Shown one piece after another: positions 1,465-61,883 of a DNA stretch of 64,000 nucleotides. The notes beneath the pieces were generated by a model. It was not told the DNA's origin and did no database searches. It was given only the letters and a program-made list of their open reading frames with translations. Positions within the stretch are counted from its first letter, which is position 1, and each line of letters starts with the position of its first letter. Both the position numbers and the translations under genes were made by a program. The stretch covers positions 1,984,001-2,048,000 of the forward strand of contig NZ_CP072333.1 of the NCBI RefSeq assembly GCF_018127745.1, read 5' to 3'. Source of the DNA: Porphyromonas sp. oral taxon 275 (GTDB lineage Bacteria > Bacteroidota > Bacteroidia > Bacteroidales > Porphyromonadaceae).

Positions 1465-1530
1465 TGAGGGATACCCGTCAGCCCTCTGAGGGACGTCCGT
1501 GGGCGCCGCGACTGATATCACTCAGCGCGC
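1465..1530. repeat. 22-bp tandem array, GC type, 3 units
   Basis: Units begin at 1465, 1487 and 1509, exactly 22 bp apart. Their cores read TGAGGGATACCCGTCA, TGAGGGACGTCCGTGG and CGACTGATATCACTCA. This is one of eight GC-type arrays in the window. It sits in the 0.6-kb gap between the tRNA-Glu promoter and tRNA-Pro. The rest of that gap (about 1320-1460 and 1531-1839) is C-rich with no gene I can support; 1320-1460 shows weak 22-bp phasing. Confidence 0.85.
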
Positions 1531-1839
1531 TCCGACACTACTAGGAGGGCGGCGCGAGCTAGAGGCGAGGATAGTTAAGGAATAGGCGTCCAAAGGAAAC
1601 AGCCCCGTGCTGCGCTTCCCGAGCCCCGCTCTGAGCGGGCCTGCTACTTAGCCCAAGCCAAGCCCCACCTTAGCCTCTCCCCCCAGCCAGTAAGTGCGAA
1701 GGCCACCCGCGGACGCGTACCTATTATATAGTCGTGGGCAAGTGGCCGAGCTTTTGCCCCCCAAGCCACAAAGGCACAAAAACAAGAAGTCCGACCCTCC
1801 AGCGGAAGATCGGACTTATTGATGTCGCTTGTATGATCG

Positions 1840-1914
1840 TCGGGATACCAGGATTCGAACCTGGGACCCCCTGCTCCCAAAGCAGGTGCGCTAACCGGAC
1901 TGCGCTACATCCCG
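1840..1914 (-). tRNA. tRNA-Pro (anticodon TGG)
   Basis: On the minus strand the stem CCTGC/GCAGG closes the loop TTTGGGA with anticodon TGG. The acceptor stem is CGGGATG with TATCCCG, then discriminator A. CCA is not encoded. It lies 36 bp downstream of tRNA-Asp and is probably cotranscribed with it. Confidence 0.95.
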
Positions 1915-1950
1915 AGTTGTCCAGAGGAGCGGCGGCTCATTGCTGAGCGG

Positions 1951-2024
1951 CGGTATGGACGGGACTCGAACCCGCGACCCCCTGCGTGACAGGCAGGTAT
2001 TCTAACCAGCTGAACTACCACACC
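1951..2024 (-). tRNA. tRNA-Asp (anticodon GTC)
   Basis: On the minus strand the stem CCTGC/GCAGG closes the loop CTGTCAC with anticodon GTC. The acceptor stem is GGTGTGG with CCATACC, then discriminator G. The next bases are CCG, so CCA is not encoded. Confidence 0.95.
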
Positions 2025-2053
2025 GAGTGCATGTCGCTGCCTCTTGACGGCTG

Positions 2054-2084
2054 CAAAGATAGCACTAATTTTCTTTTTCGCAAA
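2054..2084 (-). promoter_or_regulatory. Promoter of the tRNA-Asp/tRNA-Pro unit
   Basis: On the minus strand: -33 TTTG (complement 2081-2084), a 19-bp spacer, and -7 TATCTTTG (complement 2054-2061). This is a complete Bacteroidota consensus promoter 30 bp upstream of tRNA-Asp. Confidence 0.85.
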
Positions 2085-2264
2085 GCTACTCCCTCAGCCT
2101 CACCCCTCTAGCCCCTACGCCCCGAGGCCCTTACGCCCGAAGCATTCCGCCGCTCTCCTACCCGCCCTAAGGACATTCAGCATAGCCTCCCCCGCACGTA
2201 GCCTTCCCCGCTCAGCCAGCTGAGTCCATCGCCCTAGCACACCCTCGCCTAAGGAACCCCTCGC

Positions 2265-2352
2265 TGACCGATAGCTATCAACGCCGTGAGGGCTATCAGT
2301 CGGACGGCTGAGGGACGTCAGTCAGCGCCGTGAGGGATATCCTTCACGGAGC
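2265..2352. repeat. 22-bp tandem array, GC type, 4 units
   Basis: Units start at 2265, 2287, 2309 and 2331. The third unit is centred on GACGTC and the fourth on GATATC (TGAGGGATATCCTTCA). The array lies between the tRNA-Asp promoter and tRNA-Ser. The remaining sequence of this 0.5-kb gap (2085-2264 and 2353-2522) shows no gene. Confidence 0.88.
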
Positions 2353-2522
2353 CTCACGGATAAGGGGGACGAAGCTCAAAACAAAGGGAGACACTACAGC
2401 AAGACAAGTCAAGCAGCCCTACAGGCCAAAGCATCCGCAAGTCGCTGTGTTTATGTAATTGTCCGAGCTGACGTATCCGTGCAGCACGGAGGACATGACT
2501 ACCCGTGCGGTCGTGCTCCATC

Positions 2523-2607
2523 GGAGAGATGGTAGAGTGGTCGATTGCGGCGGTCTTGAAAACCGTTGAGGTGAGAGCCTCCGGGGGTTCGAATCCCTCT
2601 CTCTCGC
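2523..2607 (+). tRNA. tRNA-Ser (anticodon TGA), unusual acceptor end
   Basis: The stem CGGT/ACCG closes the loop CTTGAAA with anticodon TGA. The long variable arm (GAGG-loop-CCTC) and the T-loop TTCGAAT confirm a class II tRNA-Ser. The acceptor stem pairs at positions 2-7 (GAGAGA with TCTCTC). Position 1 is G and position 72 is also G (2606), followed by C as discriminator, so the terminal pair is a G-G mismatch and the usual G73 is absent. No CCA is encoded. Confidence 0.85.
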
Positions 2608-2658
2608 GAGGGAAGATCCTTCAGCGGCGTAGCTGAGGGGCCTTTCGTGGAAATAGGA

Positions 2659-2694
2659 AGCGTCGTGACTTTGAGGAGTCGCGACGCTTTTTTT
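2659..2694 (+). terminator. Rho-independent terminator after tRNA-Ser
   Basis: A 10-bp stem (GCGTCGTGAC with GTCGCGACGC, one G-T pair) with an 8-nt loop is followed by seven T residues. Confidence 0.85.
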
Positions 2695-2705
2695 GGGGGG
2701 GGGGG
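2695..2705 (+). repeat. Poly-G tract (G11)
   Basis: Eleven consecutive G residues run directly after the terminator T-tract, about 41 bp upstream of the -7 box of the receptor gene. Such homopolymers are prone to slippage. Its position is compatible with promoter modulation but proves nothing. Confidence 0.95.
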
Positions 2706-2746
2706 AGGAACGGAAGGGCAAGGCGGCGGAGCTCAGCGCTTTGGCG

Positions 2747-2754
2747 TACTTTTG
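2747..2754 (+). promoter_or_regulatory. -7 box of the outer-membrane receptor gene
   Basis: TACTTTTG matches TAnnTTTG. It would start transcription about 85 bp before the chosen ATG at 2845. No -33 TTTG lies at the proper distance. Confidence 0.6.
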
Positions 2755-2844
2755 TTTGGGCGCGGCTGGGAGCTCGGTAGGAGCGGAGTCAGAGGGCGCG
2801 CAAGCAAAAGAAGGAAACACCCACAACGACCGGAGGACATCACG

Positions 2845-5301: not shown

Positions 5302-5340
5302 CCCCAAGCCTCGGGCACGAAGCCTGCAGCCTCAAGATAC

Positions 5341-5376
5341 GACAGCGCCCCCCAGCCGTGGCTGAGGGGCGCTGTC
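5341..5376. terminator. Inverted repeat between convergent genes
   Basis: An 11-bp perfect stem, GACAGCGCCCC with GGGGCGCTGTC, lies between the receptor stop and the convergent methyltransferase stop. It has no clear T-tract, so a role as bidirectional terminator is inferred from position. Confidence 0.5.
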
Positions 5377-5469
5377 GTGCTTGGTCCCTCACGCAAAGGC
5401 GTAAGGAAGGAGCAAACTAGGTAGGGGGCTAGATAAAGCGCAGCGCAGCGCTGAGGCCAAGGCGGCTGC

Positions 5470-6276: not shown

Positions 6277-6411
6277 AGGCCTAGAGTTAGGGGGAGAACG
6301 TAGGGCTAAGGAAGCTGTCAAGGCTGCCGCCTCCTAGACAAGCGCGAGCCCCACTGCTCGGAGGCTGGAGCTAAGCCTAGGGGGGCAGGAGCTGTGCTAT
6401 CCTAAGGGGGC

Positions 6412-7233: not shown

Positions 7234-7265
7234 AGTCGTAATCTATTAGCTGGGGTCATCTAGCT

Positions 7266-7273
7266 CAAAGGTA
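7266..7273 (-). promoter_or_regulatory. -7 box of the GIN lipoprotein gene
   Basis: The minus strand reads TACCTTTG (TAnnTTTG), about 33 bp before the start codon at 7233. No -33 box is obvious. Confidence 0.65.
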
Positions 7274-7377
7274 GCACATTCTCCTAAACCGCGCCTCGAG
7301 GGCAGGCAGAGGCAGGCTGCAGTAGTAGCTCTAGCCGCACATCACGGAGGCCGGTAGCGGAGGTGAAAGCCCCTAAG

Positions 7378-8220
7378 GGTCGCCCCTGTAGGGCTCTGTA
7401 CTTACTTACGCTACCACACCCAGGGTTTGGTCGCCCCTGCAGGGCTACGCACCCTGGGCTTTGAAAGGGGTCGCCCCTATAGGGGCTCTACCTTGTCAAA
7501 GGTGAGCTGGCCTGCGAGGCATCAGCAGAGCGTAAGGAGGTGAAAGCACCAGCAAGGCGGCCCTTCCAAAGGATAGCAGCAGTGGCGTAAGCCCCAGCGG
7601 GGCGACCCGTCCAAAGCCCAGGGTGAGGGAACGCTGTAGGCGTGACGGAACCCTGGGTCCAGCCCCACTTACACTAAAAAGCCCTACAGGGGCGACTCAT
7701 CAAACAAGCTAGGCAAGCCACGGCTGTTCTGTGGGTCGCCCCTGTAGGGCTCTGTACTTACTTACGCTACCACACCCAGGGTTTGGTCGCCCCTGCAGGG
7801 CTACGCACCCTGGACTTTGATAGGGATCGCCCCTATAGGGGCTCTACCTTGTCAGAGGAGAGCTGGCCTGCGAGGCATCAGCAGAGCGTAAGGAGGTGAA
7901 AGCACCAGCAAGGCGGCCCTTCCAAAGGATAGCAGCAGTGGCGTAAGCCCCAGCGGGGCGACCCTTCCAAAGCCCAGGGTGAGGGAACGCTGTAGGCGTG
8001 ACGGAACCCTGGGTCCAGCCCCACTTACACTAAAAAGCCCTACAGGGGCGACCCATCAAACAAGCTAGGCAAGCCACGGCTGTTCTGAGGGTCGCCCCTG
8101 TAGGGCTCTGTACTTACTTACGCTACCACACCCAGGGTTTGGTCGCCCCTACAGGGCTACGCACCCTGGGCTTTGAAAGGGGTCGCCCCTATAGGGGCTT
8201 TCCCTTGTCAGAGGAGAGCT
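7378..8220. repeat. 356-bp tandem repeat, about 2.4 copies
   Basis: The segment starting GTCGCCCCTGTAGGGCTCTG recurs at about 7379, 7735 and 8091, a period of exactly 356 bp, with nearly identical copies and a truncated third. Each unit carries short inverted modules: GTCGCCCCTGTAGGGCT against AGCCCTACAGGGGCGAC, and ACCCAGGGTTT against AAACCCTGGGT-like segments. No convincing reading frame runs through it. It occupies most of the 1.3-kb gap between the GIN gene and alkD. The same modules occur at 32.3-33.2 kb. Confidence 0.92.
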
Positions 8221-8265
8221 GGCCGGCGAGGCCTAAGCGGAGCGGCGGAATAGGGGGAGGGGCTG

Positions 8266-8464
8266 TAAGGGACATACGTGCTGCGTGTGAGAGGATCAGT
8301 AAGGCAGGCTGAGAGATATCAGTCAGCGTGCTGAGGGACGTACGTGGTGCGTGTGAGAGGATCAGTAAGGCAGGCTAAGGGATATCCCTCAGCGGGCTGA
8401 GGGACGTCCATGGCACGCGTGAGGGGTATCAGTCGGGTAGGCTGAGGGGTATCAGTCAGAGCGC
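8266..8464. repeat. 22-bp tandem array, GC type, 9 units
   Basis: Units start at 8266, 8288, 8310, 8332, 8354, 8376, 8398 and 8420, all exactly 22 bp apart; the ninth starts at 8443 after a 1-bp slip. Cores include TGAGGGACGTACGTGG, TAAGGGATATCCCTCA and TGAGGGGTATCAGTCA. This is the longest GC-type array seen here. It lies between the 356-bp repeat and the alkD stop. Confidence 0.92.
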
Positions 8465-18113: not shown

Positions 18114-18222
18114 CTCTATATAGAGACTTCACCCCACAGCAAACTAGGCGGCGCACCGTCTAAGCTCCACACGCCCTCGAGGAACGAGCCTCAGCGTCCT
18201 CCGCCCTTAGTCTAAGCCCTCC

Positions 18223-18310
18223 CGAGGGATATCCCTCAGCCATCTGACCGATATCCATGAGGGCGCTGACTGCCGTCCCTCGGCCCCCTGACTGATATCC
18301 CTCACGGAGC
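18223..18310. repeat. 22-bp tandem array, GC type, 4 units
   Basis: Units start at 18223, 18245, 18267 and 18289. Cores are CGAGGGATATCCCTCA, TGACCGATATCCATGA, TGACTGCCGTCCCTCG and TGACTGATATCCCTCA. Its complement resembles the other arrays better, so it appears inverted relative to them. It is in the 0.7-kb gap before susC. The remainder of that gap holds a terminator, the susC promoter and leader, and no gene. Confidence 0.9.
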
Positions 18311-18505
18311 TCCCCCTAGGAGGAGATTCGCCTGCAGGACTCCTCGCACCACGCTATTACCCCACCTAGAGCTGCCCTCGCCCGCAAGCCGAGGTACTCC
18401 CCAAGGGCGTACGCAGCACGATCCTGAGGAGGGACAAAAGGCCCTTCCCCCACCCTTCCTAAAAATCTTAGATAAATACACTGCTTTTCAGGCCCTTACC
18501 GCCCC

Positions 18506-23877: not shown

Positions 23878-23967
23878 CGAGGGATATCAGTGAGGCGGGC
23901 TGAGGGACGTCCGTGAGGAGTGTGAGGGATATCAGTGAGGCGACCTCTAGGATATCCCTCACGGAGC
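23878..23967. repeat. 22-bp tandem array, GC type, 4 units
   Basis: Units start at 23878, 23901, 23923 and about 23946, so two of the three steps are 23 bp. Cores are CGAGGGATATCAGTGA, TGAGGGACGTCCGTGA, TGAGGGATATCAGTGA and an end unit with GGATATCCCTCA. It lies between the CRISPR-like array and the DUF2723 gene. The remainder of this 0.85-kb gap (23712-23877 and 23968-24204) shows no gene. Confidence 0.88.
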
Positions 23968-31771: not shown

Positions 31772-32277
31772 GCGCGCGCAGTTCCCTGGCTTAGAGCGCA
31801 AACAGCCCAAGGCGAGCGAGCTTAGTTCCCTGTCCAGGCGAGCTTAGTTCCCTATCCGAGCGAGCCGAGTGACTTGCCTCGGCGAGCTCACATCCTACAC
31901 TCCGCGAGCAAAGTGCCTGATGTCGGCGAGCAAAGTAATAATACTTCTCGGGAAAAGTAATATAAGTTCTCCCAAAATATTATATAACTTTCCGCAGAAT
32001 ATTATATAATAATCTGACAAAAGTTATATTACTTTCTCCGAAAAGTTATATAATAATTCGGGAGATATTATATAATAATTTGCGGGAACTTATATTACTT
32101 TTTCCGCCATATTATATTACTTCTCCCACTAAGCCTATAATCTTCCTTCGCCCACTGCCTTATGTGCGCTCGCCAAGGGCCTTAGCTTACGCCAGCAACT
32201 ACCTTACGTGAGCAAACTAATCCAGTCTTGTTACCTCCATCTTCATACACTCCAAGGCTGGCTTAATACGCTCCAAG
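31772..32277. repeat. 22-bp tandem array, AT type, about 23 units
   Basis: A continuous 22-bp phase runs through about 500 bp. GCGAGC begins six consecutive units at 31816, 31838, 31860, 31882, 31904 and 31926. From 31948 to 32123 eight units keep the phase but have AT-rich cores such as AAAGTTATATTACTTT and AGATATTATATAATAA. From 32124 the units drift back to mixed composition (CCTTATGTGC, CCTTAGCTTA, CCTTACGTGA at 22-bp steps). Many cores are near-palindromes of 16 bp (ideal AAAGTTATATAACTTT) with a 6-bp GC-containing linker. There is no coding potential. It starts about 20 bp after the OmpA-family terminator. Confidence 0.93.
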
Positions 32278-32289: not shown

Positions 32290-33200
32290 CAGATAGCTCA
32301 GGACTTCCCTACACCCTCTAGACTACAAGCGGAAGAGGAAGCCCCAGCGAGGCGACCCATAATCAAAGCCCCGCTGGAGCTTTCCACTCCGTTTGCCCAC
32401 AGACGAAGAGGAATAGAACTTATGCTTATCCTCTATCAACACAATAGCATAGGGTACATCTGCTTCTATGGAGATAGCTCAGGCCTTTACCACACCCTCT
32501 AGACTACAAGCGGAAGAGGAAGCCCCAACGGGGCGACCCAATCAAAGCCCAGGGTGCGTAGCCCTGCAAGGGCGACCAAACCCTGGGTCAAGCAAAATAA
32601 TACTAATGGAGCGCTGTAAGTGCGACCCTCAAGGCGACCAGAGCACCGCGACTTGGAGCACCTATTTATCTTTAGGGTCGCCCCTGTAGGGCTTTGTCCT
32701 TTGACTTGATGCCCTACCCAGGGTTTGGTCGCCCTTGCAGGGCTACGCACCCTGGGCTTTGATTGAATCGCCCCGCTGGGGCTTTACACTCCGCTTGCGC
32801 ACAGACGAAGAGAAACATAACCTATACTTATCCTCTATCAACACAATAGCATAGGGTACATCTGCTTCTATGGAGATAGCTCAGGCCTGTTCCACACCCT
32901 TTGGACTACAAGCAGAGGAGAAAGCCCCAACGGGGCGACCCAATCAAAGCCCAGGGTGCGTAGCCCTGAAAGGGCGACCAAACCCTGGGTCAAGCAAAAT
33001 AATCCTAATGGAGCGCTGTAAGTGCGACCCTCAAGGCGATCGGAGCGCCGCGACTTGGAGCACCTATTTATCTTTAGGGTCGCCCCTGTAGGGCTTTGTA
33101 CTTTGACTTGATGACCTACCCAGGGTTTGGTCGCCCTTGCAGGGCTACGCACCCTGGGCTTTGATTGAATCGCCCCGCTGGGGCTTTACACTCCGTTTGC
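32290..33200. repeat. 402-bp tandem repeat, two full copies plus a deleted one
   Basis: The segment ATGGAGATAGCTCAGGCC occurs at 32468 and 32870, 402 bp apart, and the sequence between the copies is nearly identical. A shortened copy with an internal deletion lies at about 32290-32467. Units carry the modules AGCCCAGGGTGCGTAGCCCT, GGGTCGCCCCTGTAGGGCTT and ACCCAGGGTTTGGTCGCCC shared with the 356-bp repeat at 7.4-8.2 kb. Short frames on both strands repeat with the unit and are not credible genes. Confidence 0.92.
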
Positions 33201-33204
33201 CCAC

Positions 33205-33430
33205 AGACGAAGAGAAACAGAACTTAGACTTATCCTCTACGAACACGATAGAGAGGAGGAACAGAACCTATGCTTATCCTCTATGGACACGATAGCGAGG
33301 AGGAATAGAACTTATGCTTATCCTCTATCAACACAACAGCGAGGAGGGACAGAACTTATGCTTATCCTCTATGACACTATAGCGAGGAGGAACAGAGCTT
33401 ATGCTTATCCTCTATGAACACAACAGCATA
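33205..33430. repeat. 44-bp tandem repeat, about 5 copies
   Basis: CTTATCCTCTA-type segments recur at 33229, 33273, 33317, 33361 and 33404, steps of 44, 44, 44 and 43 bp. They lie within a unit containing GAGGAGGAACAGAACTTATG. Single copies of this unit also end each 402-bp repeat, so the array looks like a local expansion of the repeat end. The 44-bp period is twice 22. The sequence 33431-33545 up to the ATPase gene shows nothing further. Confidence 0.9.
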
Positions 33431-33545: not shown

Positions 33546-34880
33546 ATGCGCTCCATACACCTCCAGCACTTCCGCTGCTACAGCGACCTCAGGCTCGAGC
33601 TCAAGCCCGGGATCAACCTCTTCGTCGGGGACAACGCCAGCGGCAAGACTTCGCTGCTCAGGGCTTGTCAGTACATGCTGAGTTCCTTCTTCGCGGGCTT
33701 CAGCGACGAGTACACCAAGTGGCTGAGCTTCGGCGACGACGACTTCCAGCAGGAGTTCCAGAGGGGCAAGCAGCTCGACGAGCAGCCCATCTCCATCAGC
33801 TTTGACCCCAGCGACCTCATCCAGCGCCTCAGCCCCGAGTACCTAGAGGAGCAAGGCCCTCTAGGCGAGCAAGTGCTGGAGAAGCGAAGCACCAAGAACC
33901 GCCGCGCCCTGACGGGTGGCTTCAAGGCCTACCGCAGCTACGCCCAATGGCTACAGAGCCACTACTACGACCGCGAGGCCGCACGGCAGCGCTACCCACT
34001 GCCCCTCTTCGCCTATTACTCGGTAGAGGATATCCACTCCAATCGCAAGCTCAGCCTGCAGCCCTTCAGCAAGACGACGAGCAAGTTCTCCCTCGGCTAC
34101 CTAGAGTGCCTCGAGGGCGACGGCTTCCTGCGCTACTGGGTGCACCGGCTGCTGGTGCTAGCGGAGCGTGATCCCGAGCACAGCGAGCTCGGCTTCGTGC
34201 GCCGCCAGATGCTCAAGATCCTAGGAGTGGAGGGCTGTGGCCTCTTCTACGACATGCTGATACGCCCCATCAAGCGGGAGGTGGTCTTCGTCACGCCCGA
34301 CGGGAGGGAGATCCCGACGGCCTTCCTCTCCGAGGGTTACAAGCGCATCATCTCGATGAGCCTGGATCTGGTGATGCGCAGCTACCTGCTGGACTATCCT
34401 ATCTACGGCGATGAGACCTGCCGCCACATCACGGGCACGGTGATCATCGACGAGATCGACATGCACCTACACCCGAGACTACAGGCCGAGATCCTCCCGG
34501 TGCTGCATCGCTGCTTCCCCGCCCTGCAGTTCATCGTCTCGACCCATGCGCCTATGGTGATGAGTGGCGTGCAGAGCGATGGGACGAATATCGTCTACCG
34601 CCTGCGCTGCAGCAGTGAGGCCGAGTATTCGCTCGAGGAGGCTACGACCTACGGCCTCGACATCTCCACGCTCGTGGAGCGCCTCTGGGAGCTCGCGCCC
34701 CGTAGCCATGAGGTGAGTAGCCAGCTGGCCGAGCTCTTCCACGCTATAGACGCAGGCGACTACCAGAAGGCACGCGAGCTGCTGCAGCGACTGCGCCAGG
34801 CCTTCCCAGGCGGCGAGCTGAAGGAGCTTACCCGTGCCGACACCCTTCTGAGGCTCATGCAGCACCCCCCCCGACTATGA
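33546..34880 (+). CDS. ptuA: AAA/ABC-type ATPase, PtuA-like (Septu defence)
   Basis: The protein has 444 residues of the RecF/OLD-like ABC ATPase group. Walker A GDNASGKT is at 28-35 after the typical start IHLQHFRCYSDLRLELKPGIN. A signature-like LSEGYKRII lies near 261, Walker B VIIDEIDMHLHP near 300, and the switch His in FIVSTHAPMVMSG. The overlapping downstream HNH gene makes a PtuA/PtuB pair, a known anti-phage system in which the ATPase controls the nuclease. No reverse transcriptase gene is nearby, so it is not the retron-linked form. A C8 tract at 34865-34872 precedes the stop. It lies directly after a 1.9-kb repeat region, with no clear promoter. Confidence 0.75.
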   Translation: MRSIHLQHFRCYSDLRLELKPGINLFVGDNASGKTSLLRACQYMLSSFFAGFSDEYTKWLSFGDDDFQQEFQRGKQLDEQPISISFDPSDLIQRLSPEYLEEQGPLGEQVLEKRSTKNRRALTGGFKAYRSYAQWLQSHYYDREAARQRYPLPLFAYYSVEDIHSNRKLSLQPFSKTTSKFSLGYLECLEGDGFLRYWVHRLLVLAERDPEHSELGFVRRQMLKILGVEGCGLFYDMLIRPIKREVVFVTPDGREIPTAFLSEGYKRIISMSLDLVMRSYLLDYPIYGDETCRHITGTVIIDEIDMHLHPRLQAEILPVLHRCFPALQFIVSTHAPMVMSGVQSDGTNIVYRLRCSSEAEYSLEEATTYGLDISTLVERLWELAPRSHEVSSQLAELFHAIDAGDYQKARELLQRLRQAFPGGELKELTRADTLLRLMQHPPRL

Positions 34881-35566
34881 TATACATCAAGAAGTCTCCA
34901 CCGCCCAAGGGCTTCGCAGCCTATTGCCGCCAGCCCGACGCACGCTACAGCGAGCTCTCGCACAAGGCCAAGAAGAGCCTCAAGCAAGGCCTGCTGCGCG
35001 ACCAAGGCTACCTCTGCGCCTACTGCATGGGCCGTATCGACGCCGGGGAGATGAAGGTGGAGCACATCGACAGCCAGGCCATCCACCCCGAGCTGGAGCT
35101 GGACTACGACAACCTCCTAGGCTGCTGCTACGGTGGCGAGCGCGACGAGCCCGATCCCTTCCGCGGGCGACGCTCGCTGCACTGCGACTCCTCCAAGGCT
35201 GCCCGCCGCCTCACCTGCTCGCCCCTCGACCCCGCCTGCATCGCTAGCCTCAGCTACGGATCGGAGGGCTGCAGCATACACTCCTCCAATCCCGAGTGGG
35301 ACGAGGAGCTGGATCGCATCCTGAACCTCAATACGAGCAAGCTCCGTCACAACCGTCAGGAGGCGCTCTACACGCTCCTAGACGAGCTGCAGCAGCTCTT
35401 ACCCCCACATTCCTCTCGCCATAGGCAGCGCAGCATCCTCACGAAGCTCCTCGAGCGCGTCACGGCACGCGATCGCTACGGCGAACTGATCCCCTACTGC
35501 GGCATACTCATCTACTGGCTCGAGCGCATGCTCCGCGAGCTGGAGGGGGAGCATACCGCGGGATAA
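34877..35566 (+). CDS. ptuB: HNH endonuclease, PtuB-like (Septu defence)
   Basis: The protein has 229 residues and starts MIYIKKSPPPKGFAAYCRQP, the typical beginning of the retron/Septu-associated HNH family (TIGR02646-like). A zinc-type CAYC is at 47-50, followed by the HNH elements H63 (KVEHIDSQ), N79 (LDYDNLLGCC) and H102 (LHCDSSKA). All are intact, so an active DNA nuclease is expected. Its ATG overlaps the ptuA stop by four bases (ATGA), showing tight translational coupling. Function in phage defence is inferred from the gene pair. Confidence 0.8.
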   Translation: MIYIKKSPPPKGFAAYCRQPDARYSELSHKAKKSLKQGLLRDQGYLCAYCMGRIDAGEMKVEHIDSQAIHPELELDYDNLLGCCYGGERDEPDPFRGRRSLHCDSSKAARRLTCSPLDPACIASLSYGSEGCSIHSSNPEWDEELDRILNLNTSKLRHNRQEALYTLLDELQQLLPPHSSRHRQRSILTKLLERVTARDRYGELIPYCGILIYWLERMLRELEGEHTAG

Positions 35567-39241: not shown

Positions 39242-40369
39242 ATGCGCTACTTCCTAGTCGCAGGCGAAGCCTCTGGAGACCTACATGCCTCAGCGCTCAT
39301 CCGAGCTCTGAAGGCCGAGGATCCAGAGGCTTCGTTTGCCTTTATGGGTGGGGATAAGATGGCTGCGGCCGCAGGCATTCCTCCCGTCGTCCACTACCGA
39401 GAAGTAGCCTTCATGGGCGTGGTGAGCGTCCTGAAGAACTACCGCACCATACGCCGACGCGCCGAGCGCGTGCAGGAGGCCCTGCGTGCCTTCGCCCCCG
39501 ATGTGGTCATCCCGGTGGACTTCGCCGACTTCAACATCCGCTACATCCTCCCGCTGGCCCAGGAGCTAGCTATTCCCAGCGTCTACTACATCCTGCCCAA
39601 GCTCTGGGCCTGGCGTGCTGGGCGTATCAAGCAGCTCCGCCGCTACCTCAGCCACGCCCTCTCGATCCTGCCCTTCGAGGTGGACTACTTCCGCCAGCAG
39701 GGCCTCTCGGTGAGCTACGTGGGCAATCCTTGCGTCGATGCCCAGCTGAGCTATGAGGCCGAGCACCCCGAGCCTATAGCGCGCGAGGCTGACCTCCTGG
39801 CACTCCTCCCCGGCAGCCGTAAGGCCGAGCTACGGGAGAACCTCCCCCTGATGCTCCAGGCCGCTGAGGCGCACCTCGAGGCCGGTGGACGCGTGGCCCT
39901 AGCCGCCGCGCCCGGGATGACGGAGGCGGACTACGCCCCTTACCTCAGTGCTTATCCCCAGGTGGAACTCGTCTGGGGGGATAGCTACGGACTGATGCGC
40001 CGTGCCGCACGCGCAGCTGTCACCTCGGGGACGGCCACGCTAGAGACGGCGCTCGCGGGCTGCCCGCTCGTGGTATGCTACGGCATGGGCGGACGCAGGG
40101 CGCTGCGCTGGATCTTCGAGCACTGCTTCCGCGTGCGCTACGTCTCGCTGGTCAACCTCATCCTCGACCGCCTAGCCGTGCCTGAGCTCCTAGGGGATAA
40201 GCTCAGCGCAGCCACGCTCCGCCACCAGCTGGAGCTCCTCGAGGAGGGGCAGCCCGCCCGTCGGGCACAGCTGGAGGCCTTCGCCGAGCTCAGCGCACGG
40301 CTCGGCCGCAGCTACTCGGCCCCACGTGCCGCCCGTGCGCTCCTCGAGCAGCTCCAGCAGCAGCGCTAG
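39242..40369 (+). CDS. lpxB: Lipid-A-disaccharide synthase
   Basis: The protein has 375 residues of the GT19 family. Signatures are YFLVAGEASGDLHASALIRAL at the start, FAFMGGDKMAAAAGI, DVVIPVDFADFNIRYILPLA, YYILPKLWAWRAGRIKQLRRY, VGNPCVD, LLPGSRKAELRENLPLM and SGTATLETALAGCPLVVCY. It joins UDP-diacylglucosamine and lipid X into the lipid A backbone at the inner membrane. Together with the phosphoethanolamine-transferase-like gene at 44585 it points to ordinary lipid A synthesis and modification. Confidence 0.97.
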   Translation: MRYFLVAGEASGDLHASALIRALKAEDPEASFAFMGGDKMAAAAGIPPVVHYREVAFMGVVSVLKNYRTIRRRAERVQEALRAFAPDVVIPVDFADFNIRYILPLAQELAIPSVYYILPKLWAWRAGRIKQLRRYLSHALSILPFEVDYFRQQGLSVSYVGNPCVDAQLSYEAEHPEPIAREADLLALLPGSRKAELRENLPLMLQAAEAHLEAGGRVALAAAPGMTEADYAPYLSAYPQVELVWGDSYGLMRRAARAAVTSGTATLETALAGCPLVVCYGMGGRRALRWIFEHCFRVRYVSLVNLILDRLAVPELLGDKLSAATLRHQLELLEEGQPARRAQLEAFAELSARLGRSYSAPRAARALLEQLQQQR

Positions 40370-40401
40370 CCCCTCGCCTCAGCCGTGTACATCCCTGGGA
40401 T

Positions 40402-40690
40402 AAGCTGGGGATAGCCCGAGGATAAGCGAGGGATAAATCTAGGGGCACTCGTGGACGACTTCGAGCCCCCCTCCCCCTGCCTTCGCCCCCCTGTAGATAA
40501 GCCCCCGAGCTATACACCAGCTGTACACTTAGGGCCTTCGCCTAAAAGGAGGCCCAAGCCTCCCCAAGGCGTGGATGAAGCTCCAGACTAAGCCATCGGG
40601 CAGCTCTAGCTAAGGGCCTTAGCCCTGTGGGCAGTCTGTGGGCAAGCTCCCTCAAGCCTAGGGATAAGCCTGAGGAGGGGCGGAGCGAAC
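40402..40690. repeat. Degenerate 22-bp-phased intergenic region
   Basis: AAGC occurs at 40402, 40424, 40556, 40578, 40644 and 40666, all in the same 22-bp phase, often as GGATAAGC. Units between them have lost the motif but fit the spacing. Three other AAGC copies are out of phase, so the signal is weaker than in the clear arrays. The 40370-40848 gap holds nothing else I can support apart from an AT-rich stretch at 40730-40800. Confidence 0.5.
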
Positions 40691-41725: not shown

Positions 41726-41778
41726 GACAGCGCTCCCCCGACTAGCAGCTTCGCTAGCAGGGGGAGCGCTGTCTTTTT
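41726..41778 (+). terminator. Terminator of the HAD phosphatase gene
   Basis: A 14-bp perfect stem (GACAGCGCTCCCCC with GGGGGAGCGCTGTC) enclosing a second small stem (CTAGC/GCTAG), then TTTTT. Confidence 0.92.
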
Positions 41779-41892
41779 GCCTTTAGCGCGCTGTTCTTTC
41801 TCCTTCAGTCTGCTATCTCTTTTCCTTTATATAGATGGGGACAAAGCCCCACGAAGGGCGCGCGGCGTGCTACCGCTAGGGCTGCCCTTCCG

Positions 41893-41980
41893 TGACTGAT
41901 ACCCATCAGAGGTCTGAGGGCTACCAGTCAGGCCGCCGAGGGATAGCCTTCAGCGGGCTGATGGATATCAGTCAGCACCC
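41893..41980. repeat. 22-bp tandem array, GC type, 4 units
   Basis: Units start at 41893, 41915, 41937 and 41959. Cores are TGACTGATACCCATCA, TGAGGGCTACCAGTCA, CGAGGGATAGCCTTCA and TGATGGATATCAGTCA. It lies in the 0.47-kb gap between the HAD gene and ridA. The gap also holds the terminator and ridA promoter, and nothing else visible. Confidence 0.9.
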
Positions 41981-42096
41981 CTAGGTATAGGGCGCAGTGC
42001 CGTGACTGGCGGCAGGAGCAAGCCCAGTTGGCTGCTGCCTGCCCTCGCTCCTAGAGGCTGGGAGCTCGGGCGCCCAGCAGTCGGGCTGAATTGCGT

Positions 42097-50189: not shown

Positions 50190-50320
50190 CGGGCTCGTAT
50201 TTCTTATATAACTTTTCGGAGAATATTATATTACTTTCTGACGAATATTCTATTACTTTTCGCTGAAAGTTATATTACTTTCTCCCCATTCTTATATTAC
50301 TTTGCTCCCTCCCCCTTAGC
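50190..50320. repeat. 22-bp tandem array, AT type, 5-6 units
   Basis: TATATAAC/TATATTAC-type octamers lie at 50205, 50227, 50249, 50271 and 50293, exactly 22 bp apart. Cores include AAAGTTATATTACTTT and AATATTATATTACTTT, the same as in the 31.8-32.3 kb array and in the same orientation. It occupies part of the 0.43-kb gap between pfkA and pdxJ. The rest of the gap (50013-50189, 50321-50437) shows no gene or clear promoter. Confidence 0.92.
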
Positions 50321-52143: not shown

Positions 52144-55302
<3,159 letters not shown>

Positions 55303-55354: not shown

Positions 55355-55400
55355 AGCGCGCCCTGCCAACCTCATCGGGTCGGCAGGACGCGCGCCTTTT
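55355..55400 (+). terminator. Terminator of the beta-galactosidase gene
   Basis: A GC-rich stem (GCGCGCCCTGCC with GGCAGGACGCGCGC, imperfect) is followed by CTTTTATA. It also lies downstream of the convergent ldh gene. Confidence 0.75.
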
Positions 55401-55422
55401 ATACTAGGCTCGGGGCACTCGG

Positions 55423-56427: not shown

Positions 56428-56470
56428 TTACTTCTTGTTTGCTTTGTTTTGGATTTCTGTCTTGCGAGCG

Positions 56471-56478
56471 CAAAAATA
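56471..56478 (-). promoter_or_regulatory. -7 box of ldhA
   Basis: The minus strand reads TATTTTTG (TAnnTTTG), 44 bp before the ldhA ATG. Confidence 0.7.
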
Positions 56479-56668
56479 CAACAAATCCTCCCTCCGCTGT
56501 ACGGTACGGCTAGGGTAGGGGTCGGAGGGCTGCTCGCCGAGGCCTCTTGACCCTCCTCACAGCTGGCTTCGAGAACGGGCGCGTTATGCCTTTGCTCGCC
56601 TCGGACTAAGCCGCGGTAAGGCTTGCCCTCGGCCTCCAAGCACTGTGCGTCTATAGGGGGAGGGTGCG

Positions 56669-56757
56669 TGAGGGCTATCCCTCAGCGTGCTGAGGGACGG
56701 CAGTGAGGAGCGTGAGGGCTATCAGTGGAGAGGGCTGAGGGATATCCCTCAAGGAGG
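56669..56757. repeat. 22-bp tandem array, GC type, 4 units
   Basis: Units start at 56669, 56691, 56713 and 56736 (last step 23 bp). Cores are TGAGGGCTATCCCTCA, TGAGGGACGGCAGTGA, TGAGGGCTATCAGTGG and TGAGGGATATCCCTCA; the last is a perfect 16-bp palindrome. It is in the 0.5-kb gap between ldhA and the DUF2721 gene, which holds no other feature I can support beyond the ldhA promoter. Confidence 0.92.
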
Positions 56758-56931
56758 CTCGGGCAAGGGGCAAGGCGCGCTGCGGCTCGATGAGGCCTTT
56801 GCTCGGCCCAGTAGGGGAAAAGCCTCGGCGGCTTGCCCTCGGCTAAGGGGGTAAAAGGGCAGCGGCTCACCCCCGACGACGCTGCGTGGGGATGAGCCGC
56901 TGCTCTTAGGGTTGGGGACGTAGCCTAGGGC

Positions 56932-58362
56932 CTAGTCCTGGGGCTCCTCGGGAGCCTGCTGCTGCAGGGCGCGCAGCTGGCGGGCACGTGCCTCCTCGTA
57001 GCTCATCGGACGGCCGGGCTGCTCGTCGGCGGGGCTGCTGACGGGCTCCGTGCTAGGGGCGGGCTGAGCGGCAGGCTGTGCCGTGCGGGCAGCGGGGCGG
57101 GGCGTGACGAGCGGAGCACCTGCGGGGCGTGCCATGGGCGCTGCCGTCGAGGGGCGGCTAGGCTGCACGCTGGCCTCGGGCTGAGCGAGGGCTGGCTGGG
57201 CTGCAGGCTGGCTGGGAGCTTGACTTGGGCTAGGGCTTGTGCTCTCAGCTGCGGGTGCACGCTGCACGGTGCTGGGCTGGGTAGCGGGCGCTGCTACAGG
57301 CTGCTCACTGCGGCTGGGCTGCTGCTCCGTCTGCTGCTGGGGCTCGCGGGGCTCGCGGATGGGGCGCTCGCTGCGGGGCTGGCCTGCGGGCTGTGCGCTC
57401 TGGGGCTGCGTGCTCTGAGGCTCGGCGCTGTGGGCTATTGGCTGCTCCTGGGGACTGCGTGGAGCGCGGGGCTCACGTGCTTCACGAGGCTCGCGCTGGG
57501 GGCGGCCTTCGCGCTGCTGACGGGGTTCACGCTGCTCACGAGGCTGCTCGCTGCGGCTCTCGGCCTGCTCGGCGCTCGCTGCACTCGTGGACTCCTGAGG
57601 CTGCTCGCTGCGCTCACGGCGGGGTTGACGCTGGCCCTCACGTGGCTGACGCTCCTCACGTCCTTCACGGGACTCTCGGCTCTGACGAGGCTCGCGCTCC
57701 TCGCGGCCCTCACGGGGCTCACGCTGCTGGCGTTCCTGACGCTCTTCGCGGCCAGAGCGCTGTCCTTCGCGGCCTTCACGGCTCTGACGCTCGGGGCGCT
57801 CTTCACGTCCTTCGCGGGGCTGACGTTCGGGACGCTCCTCGCGGGCGGGGCGCTCGTCCTGGGACTTGCCTTCGCCGCTGGACTTCTTCTTTTTCTTGTT
57901 CTGCTTACTCTTCTCGCGCTGTAGCTCCTCATCGTCGGGACGGCGGCGCAGCAGCGAGGGCTGCTCCTTCTTGAGCGAACCGAGATTGAGGCTCAGGGCG
58001 TCGACAGAGATCTGTATCTCCCAGATGCAGACGCAGAGTGAGGCCGCTAGCAGCACCATCCCAGCCCCAAAGATCATATCTCCGAGGACGGGTAGGTGGA
58101 TGTAGAAGAAGAACATCGCCGTAAGGCAGAAGAGCAGGCTGCTGGCCCCTAGGATCTGCATGGCGCGGATCAGCTTGAGGCGGCGGTAGAGGTTGCGCAG
58201 CTGTGCCAGGCTGGTGGGCTCGGCCTGAGGGTCGCGCTCGTGCTTCTCCTTGAGGCTACGCACGATGCTGGCGTAGGAGAGGAAGCGGTTGGTATAGGCT
58301 AGCAGGATCAGCGAGATGGCCGAGAAGAGGAGGGAGGGAGTGGAGAGGTTGATCTCGTTCAT
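56932..58362 (-). CDS. DUF2721 membrane protein with long Arg/Glu/Pro/Gln-rich tail
   Basis: The protein has 476 residues. The first 130 contain three membrane segments in the DUF2721 layout (TPSLLFSAISLILLAYTNRFL, IRAMQILGASSLLFCLTAMFF, MIFGAGMVLLAASLCVCIWE). From about 135 the chain is a lysine cluster (KQNKKKKKSS), then about 140 residues of REER/REGR/RQPRE repeats, then a Pro/Ala/Gln/Ser-rich region to the end. Typical DUF2721 proteins end soon after the membrane part, so about 340 residues are an unusual, presumably disordered, highly charged cytoplasmic tail. Function unknown; nucleic-acid or polyanion binding is possible. Confidence 0.85.
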   Translation of the reverse strand: MNEINLSTPSLLFSAISLILLAYTNRFLSYASIVRSLKEKHERDPQAEPTSLAQLRNLYRRLKLIRAMQILGASSLLFCLTAMFFFYIHLPVLGDMIFGAGMVLLAASLCVCIWEIQISVDALSLNLGSLKKEQPSLLRRRPDDEELQREKSKQNKKKKKSSGEGKSQDERPAREERPERQPREGREERPERQSREGREGQRSGREERQERQQREPREGREEREPRQSRESREGREERQPREGQRQPRRERSEQPQESTSAASAEQAESRSEQPREQREPRQQREGRPQREPREAREPRAPRSPQEQPIAHSAEPQSTQPQSAQPAGQPRSERPIREPREPQQQTEQQPSRSEQPVAAPATQPSTVQRAPAAESTSPSPSQAPSQPAAQPALAQPEASVQPSRPSTAAPMARPAGAPLVTPRPAARTAQPAAQPAPSTEPVSSPADEQPGRPMSYEEARARQLRALQQQAPEEPQD

Positions 58363-58393
58363 ATACTATGGGGCGTATGACAAGGGTGAATAA

Positions 58394-59887: not shown

Positions 59888-59935
59888 GTATATGTGTGGG
59901 TGTGCTACGGTACCCGTAGAGGCGGGTGCCGGCAG

Positions 59936-60955
59936 CTAGCTGATATAGCGCACCTCGGGCTGTAGCTCGATGCCGAAGCGCTCCTGTACCTGCTGCTGTA
60001 CGTGCTGAGCTAGGCGTGCGATGTCTTGCCCCGTAGCCTCCCCGTCGACATTGGTCAGCACAAGCGCCTGCCGTGGGTAGACGCCCGCATGCCCCAGGAC
60101 GAAGCCCTTGAGCCCGCAGCGATCGATCAGCCAGCCAGCGCTGAGCTTGATCTGACCCTCGGGGGCAGGGTAGTGGGGGATGTCGGGATAGGTCTCCTGG
60201 AGCTCCGTGAGCCGTGAGGGGGGGACGATGGGGTTCATGAAGAAGCTCCCTGCATTGCCTAGCTCGGCGGGGTCAGGGAGCTTGCTGCGGCGGATGGCGA
60301 TGACCTCCTGGCGTACGTCCTCAGGGCTGGGAGCAGCGCTGCGGGCGGCTACACGTGCCTTGAGGTCGGCGTAGTCCAGCTGCAGCTCGGGCTGCTTATC
60401 GAGGCGTAGTAGTACGTGCGTGACGATGTAGTCTGCCCCCTCAGCCGTCTTGAAGAAGCTGTGGCGGTAGGCATAGTCACACTCCTCGGGAGCGAAGTGA
60501 CGTAGCTCACCCGTACGGCGGTGTACGGTGTGCACAGAGACGACGCGCTGGCTGATCTCGGCGCCATAGGCTCCGATGTTCTGCACCGCTGCGGCGCCGA
60601 CCTGGCCAGGGATCAGGGAGAGGCATTCGAGACCTCCAAGTCCGCGGGCACAGGTGTATGCTACGAGGTCATCCCAGTGCACACCAGAGCCTACGAGGAG
60701 GGTGAGGTGTGCCTCATCCTCCTCGTAGGTCTCGAGTGTGGTGATCTGGGAGTGCAGGACGATGCCATGGAAGTTGGTAAGGAAGAGCATATTGCTCCCC
60801 TCGCCTAGAAGGAGGTGCCGGCACTCCTGGAAGTACTCATCCCGGGCCAGGAGCTGCAGCTCCTCGATGCTCTTGTAGGGGATGAACCAGTCCGCCTGGG
60901 CGTCTATGCCGAAGGTGTTGTGCGCCTTGAGGGAATACTCCTTCCTGATGTCCAT
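59936..60955 (-). CDS. murB: UDP-N-acetylenolpyruvoylglucosamine reductase MurB
   Basis: The protein has 339 residues: FAD-binding segment LLLGEGSNMLFLTNFHG, LSLIPGQVGAAAVQNIGAYGAEI, Tyr region YRHSFFK, and GNAGSFFMNP with the proton-donor Ser, then LTNVDGEATGQDI carrying the final Glu. Length and layout match the E. coli type I enzyme. It reduces enolpyruvyl-UDP-GlcNAc to UDP-MurNAc using NADPH. It sits 22 bp downstream of the SPOR gene and 48 bp upstream of the MBL-LipB fusion. Confidence 0.97.
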   Translation of the reverse strand: MDIRKEYSLKAHNTFGIDAQADWFIPYKSIEELQLLARDEYFQECRHLLLGEGSNMLFLTNFHGIVLHSQITTLETYEEDEAHLTLLVGSGVHWDDLVAYTCARGLGGLECLSLIPGQVGAAAVQNIGAYGAEISQRVVSVHTVHRRTGELRHFAPEECDYAYRHSFFKTAEGADYIVTHVLLRLDKQPELQLDYADLKARVAARSAAPSPEDVRQEVIAIRRSKLPDPAELGNAGSFFMNPIVPPSRLTELQETYPDIPHYPAPEGQIKLSAGWLIDRCGLKGFVLGHAGVYPRQALVLTNVDGEATGQDIARLAQHVQQQVQERFGIELQPEVRYIS

Positions 60956-60977
60956 AGCTAGCTGCTCGCTCGGTGGA

Positions 60978-61454
60978 TTACTGAGCGTTCTCTAGGAGCC
61001 AAGCGTCCTTGAACTCGGGGGCGAAGCGTGCCTTGACGGCCTCACGGCTGGCAGCTGCCTCATCGCGCGTGTCGAAGCTAGAGACGATGACACGCAGCAT
61101 ACCCACGTCATTGGTAGCGAGTACAGCCTGGTAGCCAGCCTGCGTCATGCGGTCCTTGAGGCTGCGCGCGTTGGTGGGGTTCTGGAAGCTCCCTACGACG
61201 ACGCTGAAGCGCTTGAGGTGGCTCGCATTCTCCCCTTCGTAGGTGGAGACGCGCTCCTTACGTACAGTGACGGGGGCAGCGGGCATCTGAGCGGCGCTAG
61301 CCTCGTACTGTACGGCAGGCTTGGTGTCCTGTGCAGCGATCTCACGCTGCTTTGCTTGTTCGTAGGCCTTACGGTAGGCGCTCTTCTTAGCGCCGCAGGA
61401 GCTGAGGGTCAGCACAGCACCCAGTGCCAGGGATGCAAGGATGATCTTCTTCAT
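60978..61454 (-). CDS. SPOR-domain lipoprotein
   Basis: The protein has 158 residues. The lipoprotein signal is MKKIILASLALGAVLTLSSC, followed by a linker rich in Lys, Gln and Ala. The C-terminal SPOR domain (about 82-155) has KRFSVVVGSFQNPTNARSLKDR, LRVIVSSFDTRDEAAASREAV and DAWLLE. SPOR domains bind denuded peptidoglycan glycans, typically at the division septum. It is the first gene of a minus-strand unit with murB. Confidence 0.94.
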   Translation of the reverse strand: MKKIILASLALGAVLTLSSCGAKKSAYRKAYEQAKQREIAAQDTKPAVQYEASAAQMPAAPVTVRKERVSTYEGENASHLKRFSVVVGSFQNPTNARSLKDRMTQAGYQAVLATNDVGMLRVIVSSFDTRDEAAASREAVKARFAPEFKDAWLLENAQ

Positions 61455-61520
61455 ATGTTTCTATTATTGGGGCACCCAGCGCGATACGCAAGCCCGCGCT
61501 GTATGCTATTATCCATACTA

Positions 61521-61528
61521 CAAAGTTA
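61521..61528 (-). promoter_or_regulatory. -7 box of the SPOR-murB unit
   Basis: The minus strand reads TAACTTTG (TAnnTTTG), 67 bp before the start codon at 61454. Confidence 0.65.
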
Positions 61529-61795
61529 ATAATTCTCTCGTAGCGGCGAGCAAAGCGCCTCACCGAGGCTGAGGGACTTCGTCCGACCTCCTCCCATGAG
61601 GCTCGGAAGGCCCTGCCCAGGCATCCCTGAGCAGCTGCCCGCCCAAGGCTGCTCCGCGCGCCCTAATTAGATATGTATATAACGCAGCTGGGACGCCCAC
61701 CGCATAGCGCCGAGGCTGGGGGCGCGTCCCCTACAGCCGCGCCTCCAGCTTGCTCCTACGGGCTCTTCTCGGTGGCGCTGGGGAGGGGGTGTTGC

Positions 61796-61883
61796 TGATG
61801 GATATCAGTCAGCACGCTGAGGGCCGTCAGTGGACGCCGTGAGGGGTATCAGTCAGGAGGCTGAGGGATATCCCTCAGCGAGA
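61796..61883. repeat. 22-bp tandem array, GC type, 4 units
   Basis: Units start at 61796, 61818, 61840 and 61862, all 22 bp apart. Cores are TGATGGATATCAGTCA, TGAGGGCCGTCAGTGG, TGAGGGGTATCAGTCA and TGAGGGATATCCCTCA. It is in the 0.76-kb divergent gap between the SPOR gene and the second susC; the rest of the gap contains the two promoters and no gene. Confidence 0.92.

Follow-up and report, generated by a model that had tools for sequence, protein, structure and literature searches.

The chromosome that contains the window (the whole 64,000-nucleotide stretch analysed here; its genome is called G000, and other G-numbers denote the genomes of relatives) carries dispersed intergenic arrays of dyad-symmetric units held in a 22-bp phase, and related genomes carry arrays of similar geometry and different sequence. 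We put at about even the chance that these are dispersed operator arrays on which protein dimers bind cooperatively, the dimers being, for several array families, probably HU-HIG paralogues.

Phased arrays in the window

The original prediction described 22-bp-phased arrays at ten loci, all of them intergenic, with varied unit sequence and occasional 1-bp slips. The observation is confirmed and is more extensive than first stated: phased units are present at all ten loci, each lies between called genes or tRNAs, and two of the ten (23878 and 56669) contain a slip. The unit sequence does vary, the ten loci falling into two sequence families. Family A, centred on GATATC or GACGTC, is found at 1465 (1464..1534, + strand, three clear units between tRNA genes), 2265 (2264..2356, +, four units), 8266 (8248..8459, +, about eight units with a 66-bp super-period), 18223 (18222..18314, − strand, four units of reversed polarity), 23878 (23879..23965, +, about four units, with its 1-bp slip), 41893 (41892..41984, +, four units), 56669 (56668..56755, +, about four units, likewise with a 1-bp slip) and 61796 (61795..61887, +, four units). 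Family B, AT-rich and AAGTTATATAACTT-like, occurs at 50190 (50194..50303, unstranded, about five units) and at 31772 (31776..32135, unstranded), where a long array of GC-rich GCGAGC units passes in phase into the AT-rich family B units. Two extra short 22-bp-periodic stretches, also unstranded, were seen, one of GGGATAAGC-type units and absent from the earlier list (40367..40448), the other immediately to the left of the 41892 array (41761..41832).

Periodicity and family A across the genome

A scan at lag 22 in this and related genomes had been proposed in advance; it was run, and the 22-bp excess survived. In a 464-kb genome sample, scored at lags 8–100 in 44-bp segments with at least 29 matches, 36 segments were found at lag 22, 33 at lag 44, 14 at lag 66, 8 at lag 45 and 7 at lag 88, with at most 4 at any remaining lag and 0 or 1 in a first-order Markov control. 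Lag 22, together with 44, 66 and 88, is thus the sole strong short-range periodicity of the sample.

The family A unit consists of CTGAGGGATATCCCTCAG followed by 4 bp, so the 16-bp core and 6-bp linker first proposed give way here to an 18-bp dyad and a 4-bp linker. Steps from unit to unit are exactly 22 bp in 133 of 142 cases and most arrays have four units, 33 of 50 spanning exactly that number; because of this usual number (the 8266 array is longer), family A is unlike a length-variable minisatellite. The leader and tail are weakly conserved (CTAAGGGGGAGG-like), and no sharp ends were seen. Genome-wide, the pattern matches at 336 forward and 320 reverse places with at most two mismatches (control, 0), many of these being counted on both strands because the pattern is nearly palindromic; a search of 60 further genomes did not find family A, none of them exceeding 6 places against these 656.

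Dyads, parity and unit number

Dyad-symmetric units (p≤0.05) were detected in 109 of 176 arrays, compared with 1 of 23 control tandem tracts; array counts within one genome are not independent, as the copies are related. Period and dyad length obey a parity rule: even-length dyads accompany period 22 (84:1), odd-length ones periods 23 and 21 (16:2 and 4:1). The extra base of period 23 sits at the dyad centre, leaving the spacing across the linker unchanged, and conservation on the linker side is about equal for periods 22 and 23. The earlier argument that two helical turns per unit would place every core on the same DNA face is therefore only partly right, since the fixed quantity is the cross-linker spacing, while the period itself is 21, 22 or 23 bp among relatives.

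Within the units, the arms are conserved (1.30 bits) and the linkers hardly so (0.28, against 0.12 in the flanks). The centre of the family A dyad is coupled: in 192 units it reads TA in 131, CG in 53 and is mixed in 8, giving 184 complementary pairs where 111.8 are expected. Elsewhere in the dyad, no excess of compensatory pairs was detected. The usual number of units is four or five in the five families counted; apart from family A, a G014 family has four at most (four in 6 of 13 arrays), two G004 families have five in 10 of 20 and in 17 of 21 arrays, and a G021 family has five in 5 of 6. Exceptions of variable length are family B with eight units, one G004 family with about eleven, and BrickBuilt, a repeat of Porphyromonas gingivalis, which is longer. 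Units at matching positions in different arrays are more similar to each other (0.725) than units within an array (0.686), which fits spread of the element as a whole; to that extent the earlier suggestion of a self-spreading repeat also holds.

Arrays in gaps and in related genomes

Of 80 sampled G000 gaps of at least 300 bp, 56 hold an array, mostly one each, against 43.4±2.6 or 28.8±2.9 expected. Genes were called here by a hexamer caller, which misses those whose composition is unusual, so that one "gap", the longest, extends over 12.5 kb; occupancy remained above random placement after all ORFs of at least 200, 150 or 120 aa had been added (58/92, 58/95 and 55/94), with 1, 1 and 3 of 65 arrays then falling inside an ORF. 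Gap statistics are given for G000 only because the caller had little sequence from relatives (coding fraction 0.35–0.76); among seven of these, over-spreading was clear in G004 (by length) and G021 only. Family A occupies 9 of 19 divergent, 5 of 8 convergent and 33 of 53 co-directional gaps. With no clear preference for a gap type, and divergent gaps occupied too, placement as terminators or promoters was rejected.

Other Porphyromonadaceae carry arrays of differing sequence, with lag peaks at 21, 22 or 23. Sequences turn over between species: of two sister species, one has GACC-N6-GGTC at period 22 and the other GACC-N7-GGTC at period 23. In at least two of the gaps compared, an array of G014 was not seen in the orthologous gap of G004. 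In a few cases the orientation flips in mid-array, as judged by eye (G022 L080:15196-15345 and G031 L121:15393-15468).

Association with HU-HIG genes

An array lies upstream of 13 of the 21 HU-HIG histone-like genes (Pfam PF18291) that were read (8/11 and 5/10), compared with 55 of 202 controls (p=0.0018), some of the 13 (L202, G004 C2:52051, L209 and L213) being at the threshold score of 30; the other 8 upstream regions had none. Since arrays are common, this any-array association is moderate. It is sharper for the minor families of G000, found upstream of 5 of 6 HU-HIG genes and of 2 of 88 other genes (p=2e-6; 3 of 4 with a triplicate collapsed, p=3e-4). The sixth HU-HIG gene (1804254-1804766, minus strand) has no array, and none of the six was found to adjoin a family A array.

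The association recurs in relatives. A family C array stands upstream of an HU-HIG gene in both G000 (gene 1212270-1212794) and G004, and the G000 protein has its closest match in the C-linked protein of G004 (86%; next match, 63%). The dominant G014 family and, in P. gingivalis (G025), BrickBuilt were each also found upstream of an HU-HIG gene, the G025 gene lying near position 961562. The corresponding pairing predicted for family B failed: the top match of the B-linked protein, of which 105 residues were compared, is a G004 paralogue whose array is a different one (70%), and the G004 HU-HIG protein with B sites upstream comes second (63%). Against the PDB, the HU-HIG profile gave one marginal histone-like match (E 0.054). 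HU proteins usually have weak sequence specificity.

Discussion

With their spacing kept, their sequence changed and several of them upstream of HU-HIG genes, the arrays look like fast-evolving chromosome binding sites. Cooperative binding of a dimeric protein, among the roles first suggested, is the reading best supported by the sequence, favoured by the dyads, the coupled centre, the conserved arms and free linkers, the usual unit number and the little long-hairpin ordering detected. We infer protein binding, HU-HIG as the binder and an effect on chromosome organisation or local transcription. Each array would be a dispersed non-coding operator element, typically of four or five dyad sites, each site holding one dimer; adjacent dimers would touch across the fixed-length linker, and a defined oligomer would assemble on about 90–115 bp of DNA. 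The elements would have been copied through the genome as wholes and would now be retained, roughly one to each long gap between genes. In several families the probable binder would be the HU-HIG protein whose own gene has that family's array upstream, an arrangement implying autoregulation together with binding at the dispersed copies. Array sequence and protein may co-evolve, which would explain why the motif differs between species as the geometry persists. More tentatively, the arrays could form a chromosome-architecture system in which each HU-HIG paralogue recognises an array family of its own and the arrays, set roughly one to a gap, resemble boundary elements. Joint evolution of motif and protein would then be rapid enough to leave sister species with a common geometry but different sequences, and would extend to a one-base change in dimer spacing made genome-wide.

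Other explanations share part of this evidence. It is unlikely, in our view, that the arrays are MITEs, as BrickBuilt has been interpreted (PMC4596501), with tandem dyads serving as transposase-binding sites and the arrays spreading and persisting as selfish DNA. Dispersal as whole elements, the G014 arrays not seen in orthologous G004 gaps and the IS5-type terminal inverted repeats of some BrickBuilt copies (PMC4596501) agree with this; however, conserved arms beside unconserved linkers are unlike dead copies, the spread over gaps is more even than random placement, and one geometry recurs with different sequences across Porphyromonadaceae. Rather unlikely, too, is binding by a different host protein, for instance an Lrp/AsnC-type octamer, whose four dimers would match four units, with the proximity of HU-HIG genes being incidental or reflecting regulation of those genes. 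A usual number of four or five units suits an oligomer of dimers, and family A, the largest in G000, has no HU-HIG partner found; against this stand the enrichment of minor-family arrays at HU-HIG genes (5/6 against 2/88) and the family C array that accompanies the best-matching HU-HIG protein in two species.

We regard it as very improbable that the arrays act as RNA, whether as terminators, attenuators or hairpin RNAs. The units are self-complementary, the few mid-array flips would favour a hairpin, and BrickBuilt has promoter activity in both directions and a predicted fold with long stems (PMC4596501). Yet family A shows no clear preference among divergent, convergent and co-directional gaps, dyad pairs off the centre lack compensatory excess, Rfam matches are to tRNAs only, and whole-array inverted order was significant (p≤0.05) for 3 arrays among 159, and for 2 among the 54 that have at least five units, a test of little power for arrays of three or four. 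Least credible are neutral slippage minisatellites, disfavoured by the usual unit number and conserved arms, and REP/BIME-type repeats moved by a Y1 (RAYT) transposase. The arrays are indeed dispersed, intergenic, palindromic and species-specific, and G000 has one Y1 transposase; nevertheless, among 25 genus genomes searched, its own included, only G000, G012 and G020 gave a Y1 match, and G004, G007, G014, G017, G021 and G022, all array-bearing, gave none, which argues against such a mover.

REP/BIME elements with RAYT are themselves dispersed intergenic palindromes, present in hundreds and with fast species turnover, as here; we know of none with dyads in a fixed 21–23-bp phase, and the arrays differ in that most of the genus (25 genomes searched) is without a Y1 match. 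Plasmid iterons and cooperative operator arrays have tandem sites about two helical turns apart that are bound cooperatively; both are single loci on replicons, whereas the arrays described here number hundreds per chromosome.

The closest published likeness is BrickBuilt itself, a MITE/minisatellite of P. gingivalis (Klein et al. 2015, PMC4596501) with tandem 23-nt units that is intergenic, dispersed and species-limited and has a copy upstream of an HU-HIG gene. G000 shares with it tandem units of similar size, dispersed between genes. Its unit, AGAYCATARTATCCTCTCRTRTG, has no place in G000 at up to three mismatches, against 112/106 in G025 and 12/17 in G010. BrickBuilt has about 19 copies, with arrays that can reach 18 or more near-identical units, length variation between strains and, in some copies, IS5-like ends (PMC4596501); family A, in contrast, has hundreds of short arrays whose units have diverged but are usually the same in number, and many sequence families make up the class as a whole. 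The genome paper on P. gingivalis W83 (via PMC4596501) mentions tandem repeats of 22, 23 and 41 nt, 22-nt repeats thus having been noticed there too; by that account they were neither exactly located nor compared between genomes. The capsule locus of P. gingivalis has an intergenic 77-bp inverted repeat that the HU protein PG0121 binds over an unrelated 77-mer (PMC3969353, PMC8757827). It resembles the arrays in its inverted symmetry, in lying between genes and in its binding of an HU protein, which for the arrays we infer; it differs in being a long stem-loop, not described in these sources as a phased array, and PG0121 is by description an HU homologue.

If the proposal of HU-HIG-bound operator arrays is correct, a whole family of bacteria would have ordered binding sites at about one per long gene boundary, replaced in sequence between close species and retained in geometry. 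A chromosome-organising system would then offer a tractable example of fast protein–DNA co-evolution, HU-HIG proteins would gain a suggested function, and BrickBuilt, described in its source from P. gingivalis and P. gulae only (PMC4596501), would become a published member of a wide class.

Gene order and array orientation

Between G000 and G004, the genes flanking array gaps were separated in 3 of 3 cases, against 2 of 10 for array-free gaps of at least 150 bp (p=0.035). Array-bearing G004 gaps for which both neighbours were found in G014 kept them in 2 of 2 cases (4 of 4 with more G014 sequence), and for this reason we do not claim the arrays as rearrangement breakpoints. A segregation element, also raised originally, was supported by no test: array orientation shows no clear relation to GC skew, by eye in sampled stretches, and a link to replication polarity was rejected. 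Among oriented family A arrays in co-directional gaps, 20 of 30 oppose transcription, a weak tendency.

Periodicity and placement of the arrays

The window occupies positions 1984001-2048000 of a single 2,180,921-bp contig and carries SusC/RagA receptors together with other Bacteroidota genes. The original prediction placed 22-bp-phased arrays at ten intergenic loci, and all ten are indeed arrays of 22-bp units lying between genes. A lag scan had been named beforehand as the refuting test, and we ran it without bias over lags 8-100 on a 464-kb sample of the genome, made of the window and twenty further stretches of 20 kb from across it. Lag 22 was found at 36 places, lag 44 at 33, lag 66 at 14, lag 45 at 8 and lag 88 at 7, each of the remaining lags at four places or fewer, and the Markov control gave 0 or 1. 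The 22-bp excess is thus present beyond the window, and the dominance of lag 22 and its multiples over such a control leaves the predicted periodicity standing.

At looser thresholds the sample yields 63 periodic loci of several sequence families, a list that includes some in coding sequence (e.g., window 57371 and 57692). The main family, A, is GATATC-centred, and the minor ones are B (AAAGTAATATAACTTT), C (AAACGTATACGTTT), D (ATTTC..TGCGCA..GAAAT) and E (AAAAGTGGCTAATCTTTT); families can be mixed in phase inside one array, as in the sampled stretches L043 (5982-6199) and L040 (10401-10537). At window 57371-57821 the 22/45-bp-periodic repeats are part of a called gene (minus strand, 56932-58362) and are therefore probably a protein-level feature rather than arrays of this class.

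None of the 50 family A arrays of the sample falls within a called gene, and with all families taken together just one of 65 arrays does. The shortest array-bearing gap measures 324 bp, and among gaps of at least 300 bp in the sample 56 of 80 carry an array (one array in 50 gaps, two in six), where random placement would fill 43.4±2.6 with equal weights or 28.8±2.9 by length. The gene caller was home-made and missed some genes; if all ORFs of 150 aa or more are counted as genes too, 58 of 95 gaps are filled, against 45.6±2.6 or 37.8±2.9 expected. Of the divergent gaps, 9 of 19 hold a family A array; the figure is 5 of 8 for convergent gaps and 33 of 53 for co-directional ones, so that no clear preference for one type emerges.

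Directly left of the array at window 8266 there is a tandem repeat of 356 bp (7376-8244; 2.4 copies, 96%). A Septu-type defence pair, a PtuA-like ATPase (PADLOC E 2.5e-149) and a PtuB-like protein (E 3.6e-62), is encoded at window 33546-35566 (+), preceded by 402-bp repeats and a 44-bp (2 x 22) tandem repeat (32368-33421) and by the array at 31776-32135.

Anatomy of family A and number of units

Exactly four units make up 33 of the 50 family A arrays, and 133 of 142 unit-to-unit steps are 22 bp. The division of the unit into a 16-bp core and a 6-bp linker, as originally predicted, does not hold for this family, whose unit is an 18-bp dyad (the mirror-symmetric part) followed by a 4-bp linker. 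In an alignment of 33 four-unit arrays, from which one of 34 was excluded for a 1-bp length difference, the information per column is 1.30 bits in the arms, 0.28 in the linkers and 0.12 in the flanks. The dyad centre depends on position, unit 2 favouring CG and units 1 and 4 favouring TA. Similarity is highest between units that share a position but belong to different arrays (0.725, compared with 0.686 within one array and 0.678 for different positions in different arrays), and whole family A elements have thus probably been dispersed, instead of growing locally.

The central bases covary (TA 131, CG 53, mixed 8, in 192 units), and at the other dyad pairs complementary combinations do not rise above independence, being fewer than expected at pair 5/14 (40 vs 78.8). 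A covarying centre with no excess elsewhere in the dyad is more in keeping with a symmetric protein-binding site than with the stem of an RNA.

Among the comparison genomes, a family of G014 has at most four units (four in 6/13), five are usual in two families of G004 (10/20 and 17/21), and a family of G021 has five in 5/6. A usual unit number is unexpected for a minisatellite growing by slippage and expected for a complex of defined size. Longer or variable arrays are a B array of about eight units upstream of an HU-HIG gene, one G004 family of about 11, and BrickBuilt, with more.

Turnover of sequence and geometry in relatives

Family A was found at 656 places in the window's own genome (G000) and at no more than six in each of the 60 others of the 61 searched, each species being represented by one genome. 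Sampled relatives do show peaks at lag 21, 22 or 23, but built from different sequences. At least one match at these lags is present in 10 of the 15 other same-genus genomes with at least 18 kb read; five of the ten were read over only about 20 kb (one match each in G007, G012 and G023, three in G014, five in G021). At the threshold used, G003, G005, G009, G010 and G018 gave no match, four of them read over only about 20 kb. A genome of another genus in the same family, G031, gave nine; in 180 kb from six genomes outside that family there were two in total, in G039 and G059, both lacking dyad symmetry.

With all stretches pooled, column permutation finds significant dyad symmetry in 109 of the 176 arrays whose period is 21-23, compared with 1 of 23 control tandem tracts whose period is different; the case is weak for G022 (1/11). 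As a whole, an array rarely forms one long inverted repeat, such an order reaching p<=0.05 in only 3 of 159 arrays (2 of 54 among those with at least five units). Among dyad-significant arrays the dyad length follows the period, being even in 84 of 85 at period 22, odd in 16 of 18 at period 23 and odd in 4 of 5 at period 21, although arrays within one genome are related copies and hence not independent cases. A rerun with a fresh random null and a slightly different array set gave, from per-distance counts, 79/80, 17/21 and 3/3, respectively. The period-23 rule is seen in G014, G021 and G025, and the period-22 rule in most genomes with that period. Conservation as a function of distance from the linker centre is much alike for both periods, and the extra base of period 23 sits at the dyad centre, where it is poorly conserved (0.60). 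The half-sites facing each other across the linker therefore keep their distance, while the spacing within the dyad may shift by one.

The turnover is seen between the sister species G014 and G004, whose glycyl-tRNA synthetases are 95% and 94% identical to that of G000. With one mismatch allowed, G014 has 410 GACCTACNGTAGGTC sites, a motif with none in G004 or G000, and G004 has 121 GACCTATATAGGTC sites, a motif with one in G014 and none in G000. In the contigs read, steps are 23 bp in 21/26 for G014 and 22 bp in 61/62 for G004. One orthologous gap has an array at the same place in both species, each with its own spacing, and a second has arrays in both as well; further orthologous gaps have an array in just one of the two, so gain and loss also happen.

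HU-HIG genes and upstream arrays

A link with HU-HIG, a histone-like protein (Pfam PF18291), was first seen by comparing PF18291 gene coordinates with array positions, which put arrays directly upstream, after which the upstream DNA was read. Since the model matches plain HU too, its tallies of 8, 9, 10, 17, 17 and 3 per genome are maxima; in G000, two of eight look by eye like plain HU and have no array. The six HU-HIG genes of G000 are preceded by an E array in three cases, a C array in one, a B array of eight units in one and none in one. The three E-linked genes (G000:C1:562662, 1225186 and 2091023, all +) are near-identical, and so is the DNA upstream of them, E array included, as though each gene had been duplicated along with its array.

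In the two sets read, an array lies no more than about 600 bp upstream of 8/11 and 5/10 HU-HIG genes (G000 5/6, G004 5/6, G013 1/1, G014 1/4, G021 0/1, G025 1/3). Among control genes whose non-coding upstream DNA measures 300 bp or more, an array of any family is present in 32/91 cases in G000 and 23/111 in G004, and the pooled comparison, 13/21 vs 55/202, gives p=0.0018 (Fisher). Three of the G000 controls are HU-HIG genes, and without these only 2 of 88 have a non-A array. For the minor families of G000 the contrast is therefore 5/6 vs 2/88 (p=2e-6), or 3/4 with the triplicate counted as one (p=3e-4); for any array it is 5/6 vs 29/88 in G000 (p=0.022) and 5/6 vs 23/111 in G004 (p=0.003). The pairing includes the dominant G014 family and BrickBuilt in G025. 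Going by coordinates, B or D sites also lie within a few hundred bases upstream of four more HU-HIG matches outside the 13/21 count (G004 C1:329618, G014 C36:381840 and C8:110524, G021 C23:1982). One G025 gene scored as a miss has an insertion sequence (L113:776-2068) between a 23-bp-phased array and itself; the ends of this element look ISPg3-like by eye against the table in PMC4596501.

Array type predicted protein relatedness for family C, the C-linked HU-HIG protein of G000 matching that of G004 at 86% and the next at 63%. For family B the same prediction failed, since the B-linked protein is best matched (70%) by one whose gene lies next to another kind of array, and the one with B sites comes second (63%). 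The B-linked HU-HIG match itself (L204; G000:C1:280897-281355) contains one TAG within the aligned stretch. The genus is taken as Porphyromonas, to which a few named homologues of a G000 HU-HIG protein belong; a genome of the same genus, G025, also carries BrickBuilt.

Proposed binding mode and relation to known repeats

Dyads with conserved arms, free linkers, a usual unit number and a fixed spacing across the linker point to protein dimers that would sit on the dyad units, each touching its neighbours. We give HU-HIG about an even chance of being the binder; its link with the arrays is statistical and positional, and concerns families other than A. That another host protein binds them is a clearly less probable reading, and a transposon view of the arrays is about as probable as that. 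The probable dispersal of whole family A elements also fits the transposon view.

The arrays belong with dispersed intergenic repeats, a kind already known. The open-licence literature searched yielded no description of the wider array class or of HU-HIG as its binder. The paper that published BrickBuilt from P. gingivalis (PMC4596501) mentions 22-, 23- and 41-nt repeats that had been noted in strain W83, their exact locations not being given. BrickBuilt itself, with units of 23 nt, is present in G025 as 112 forward and 106 reverse units.
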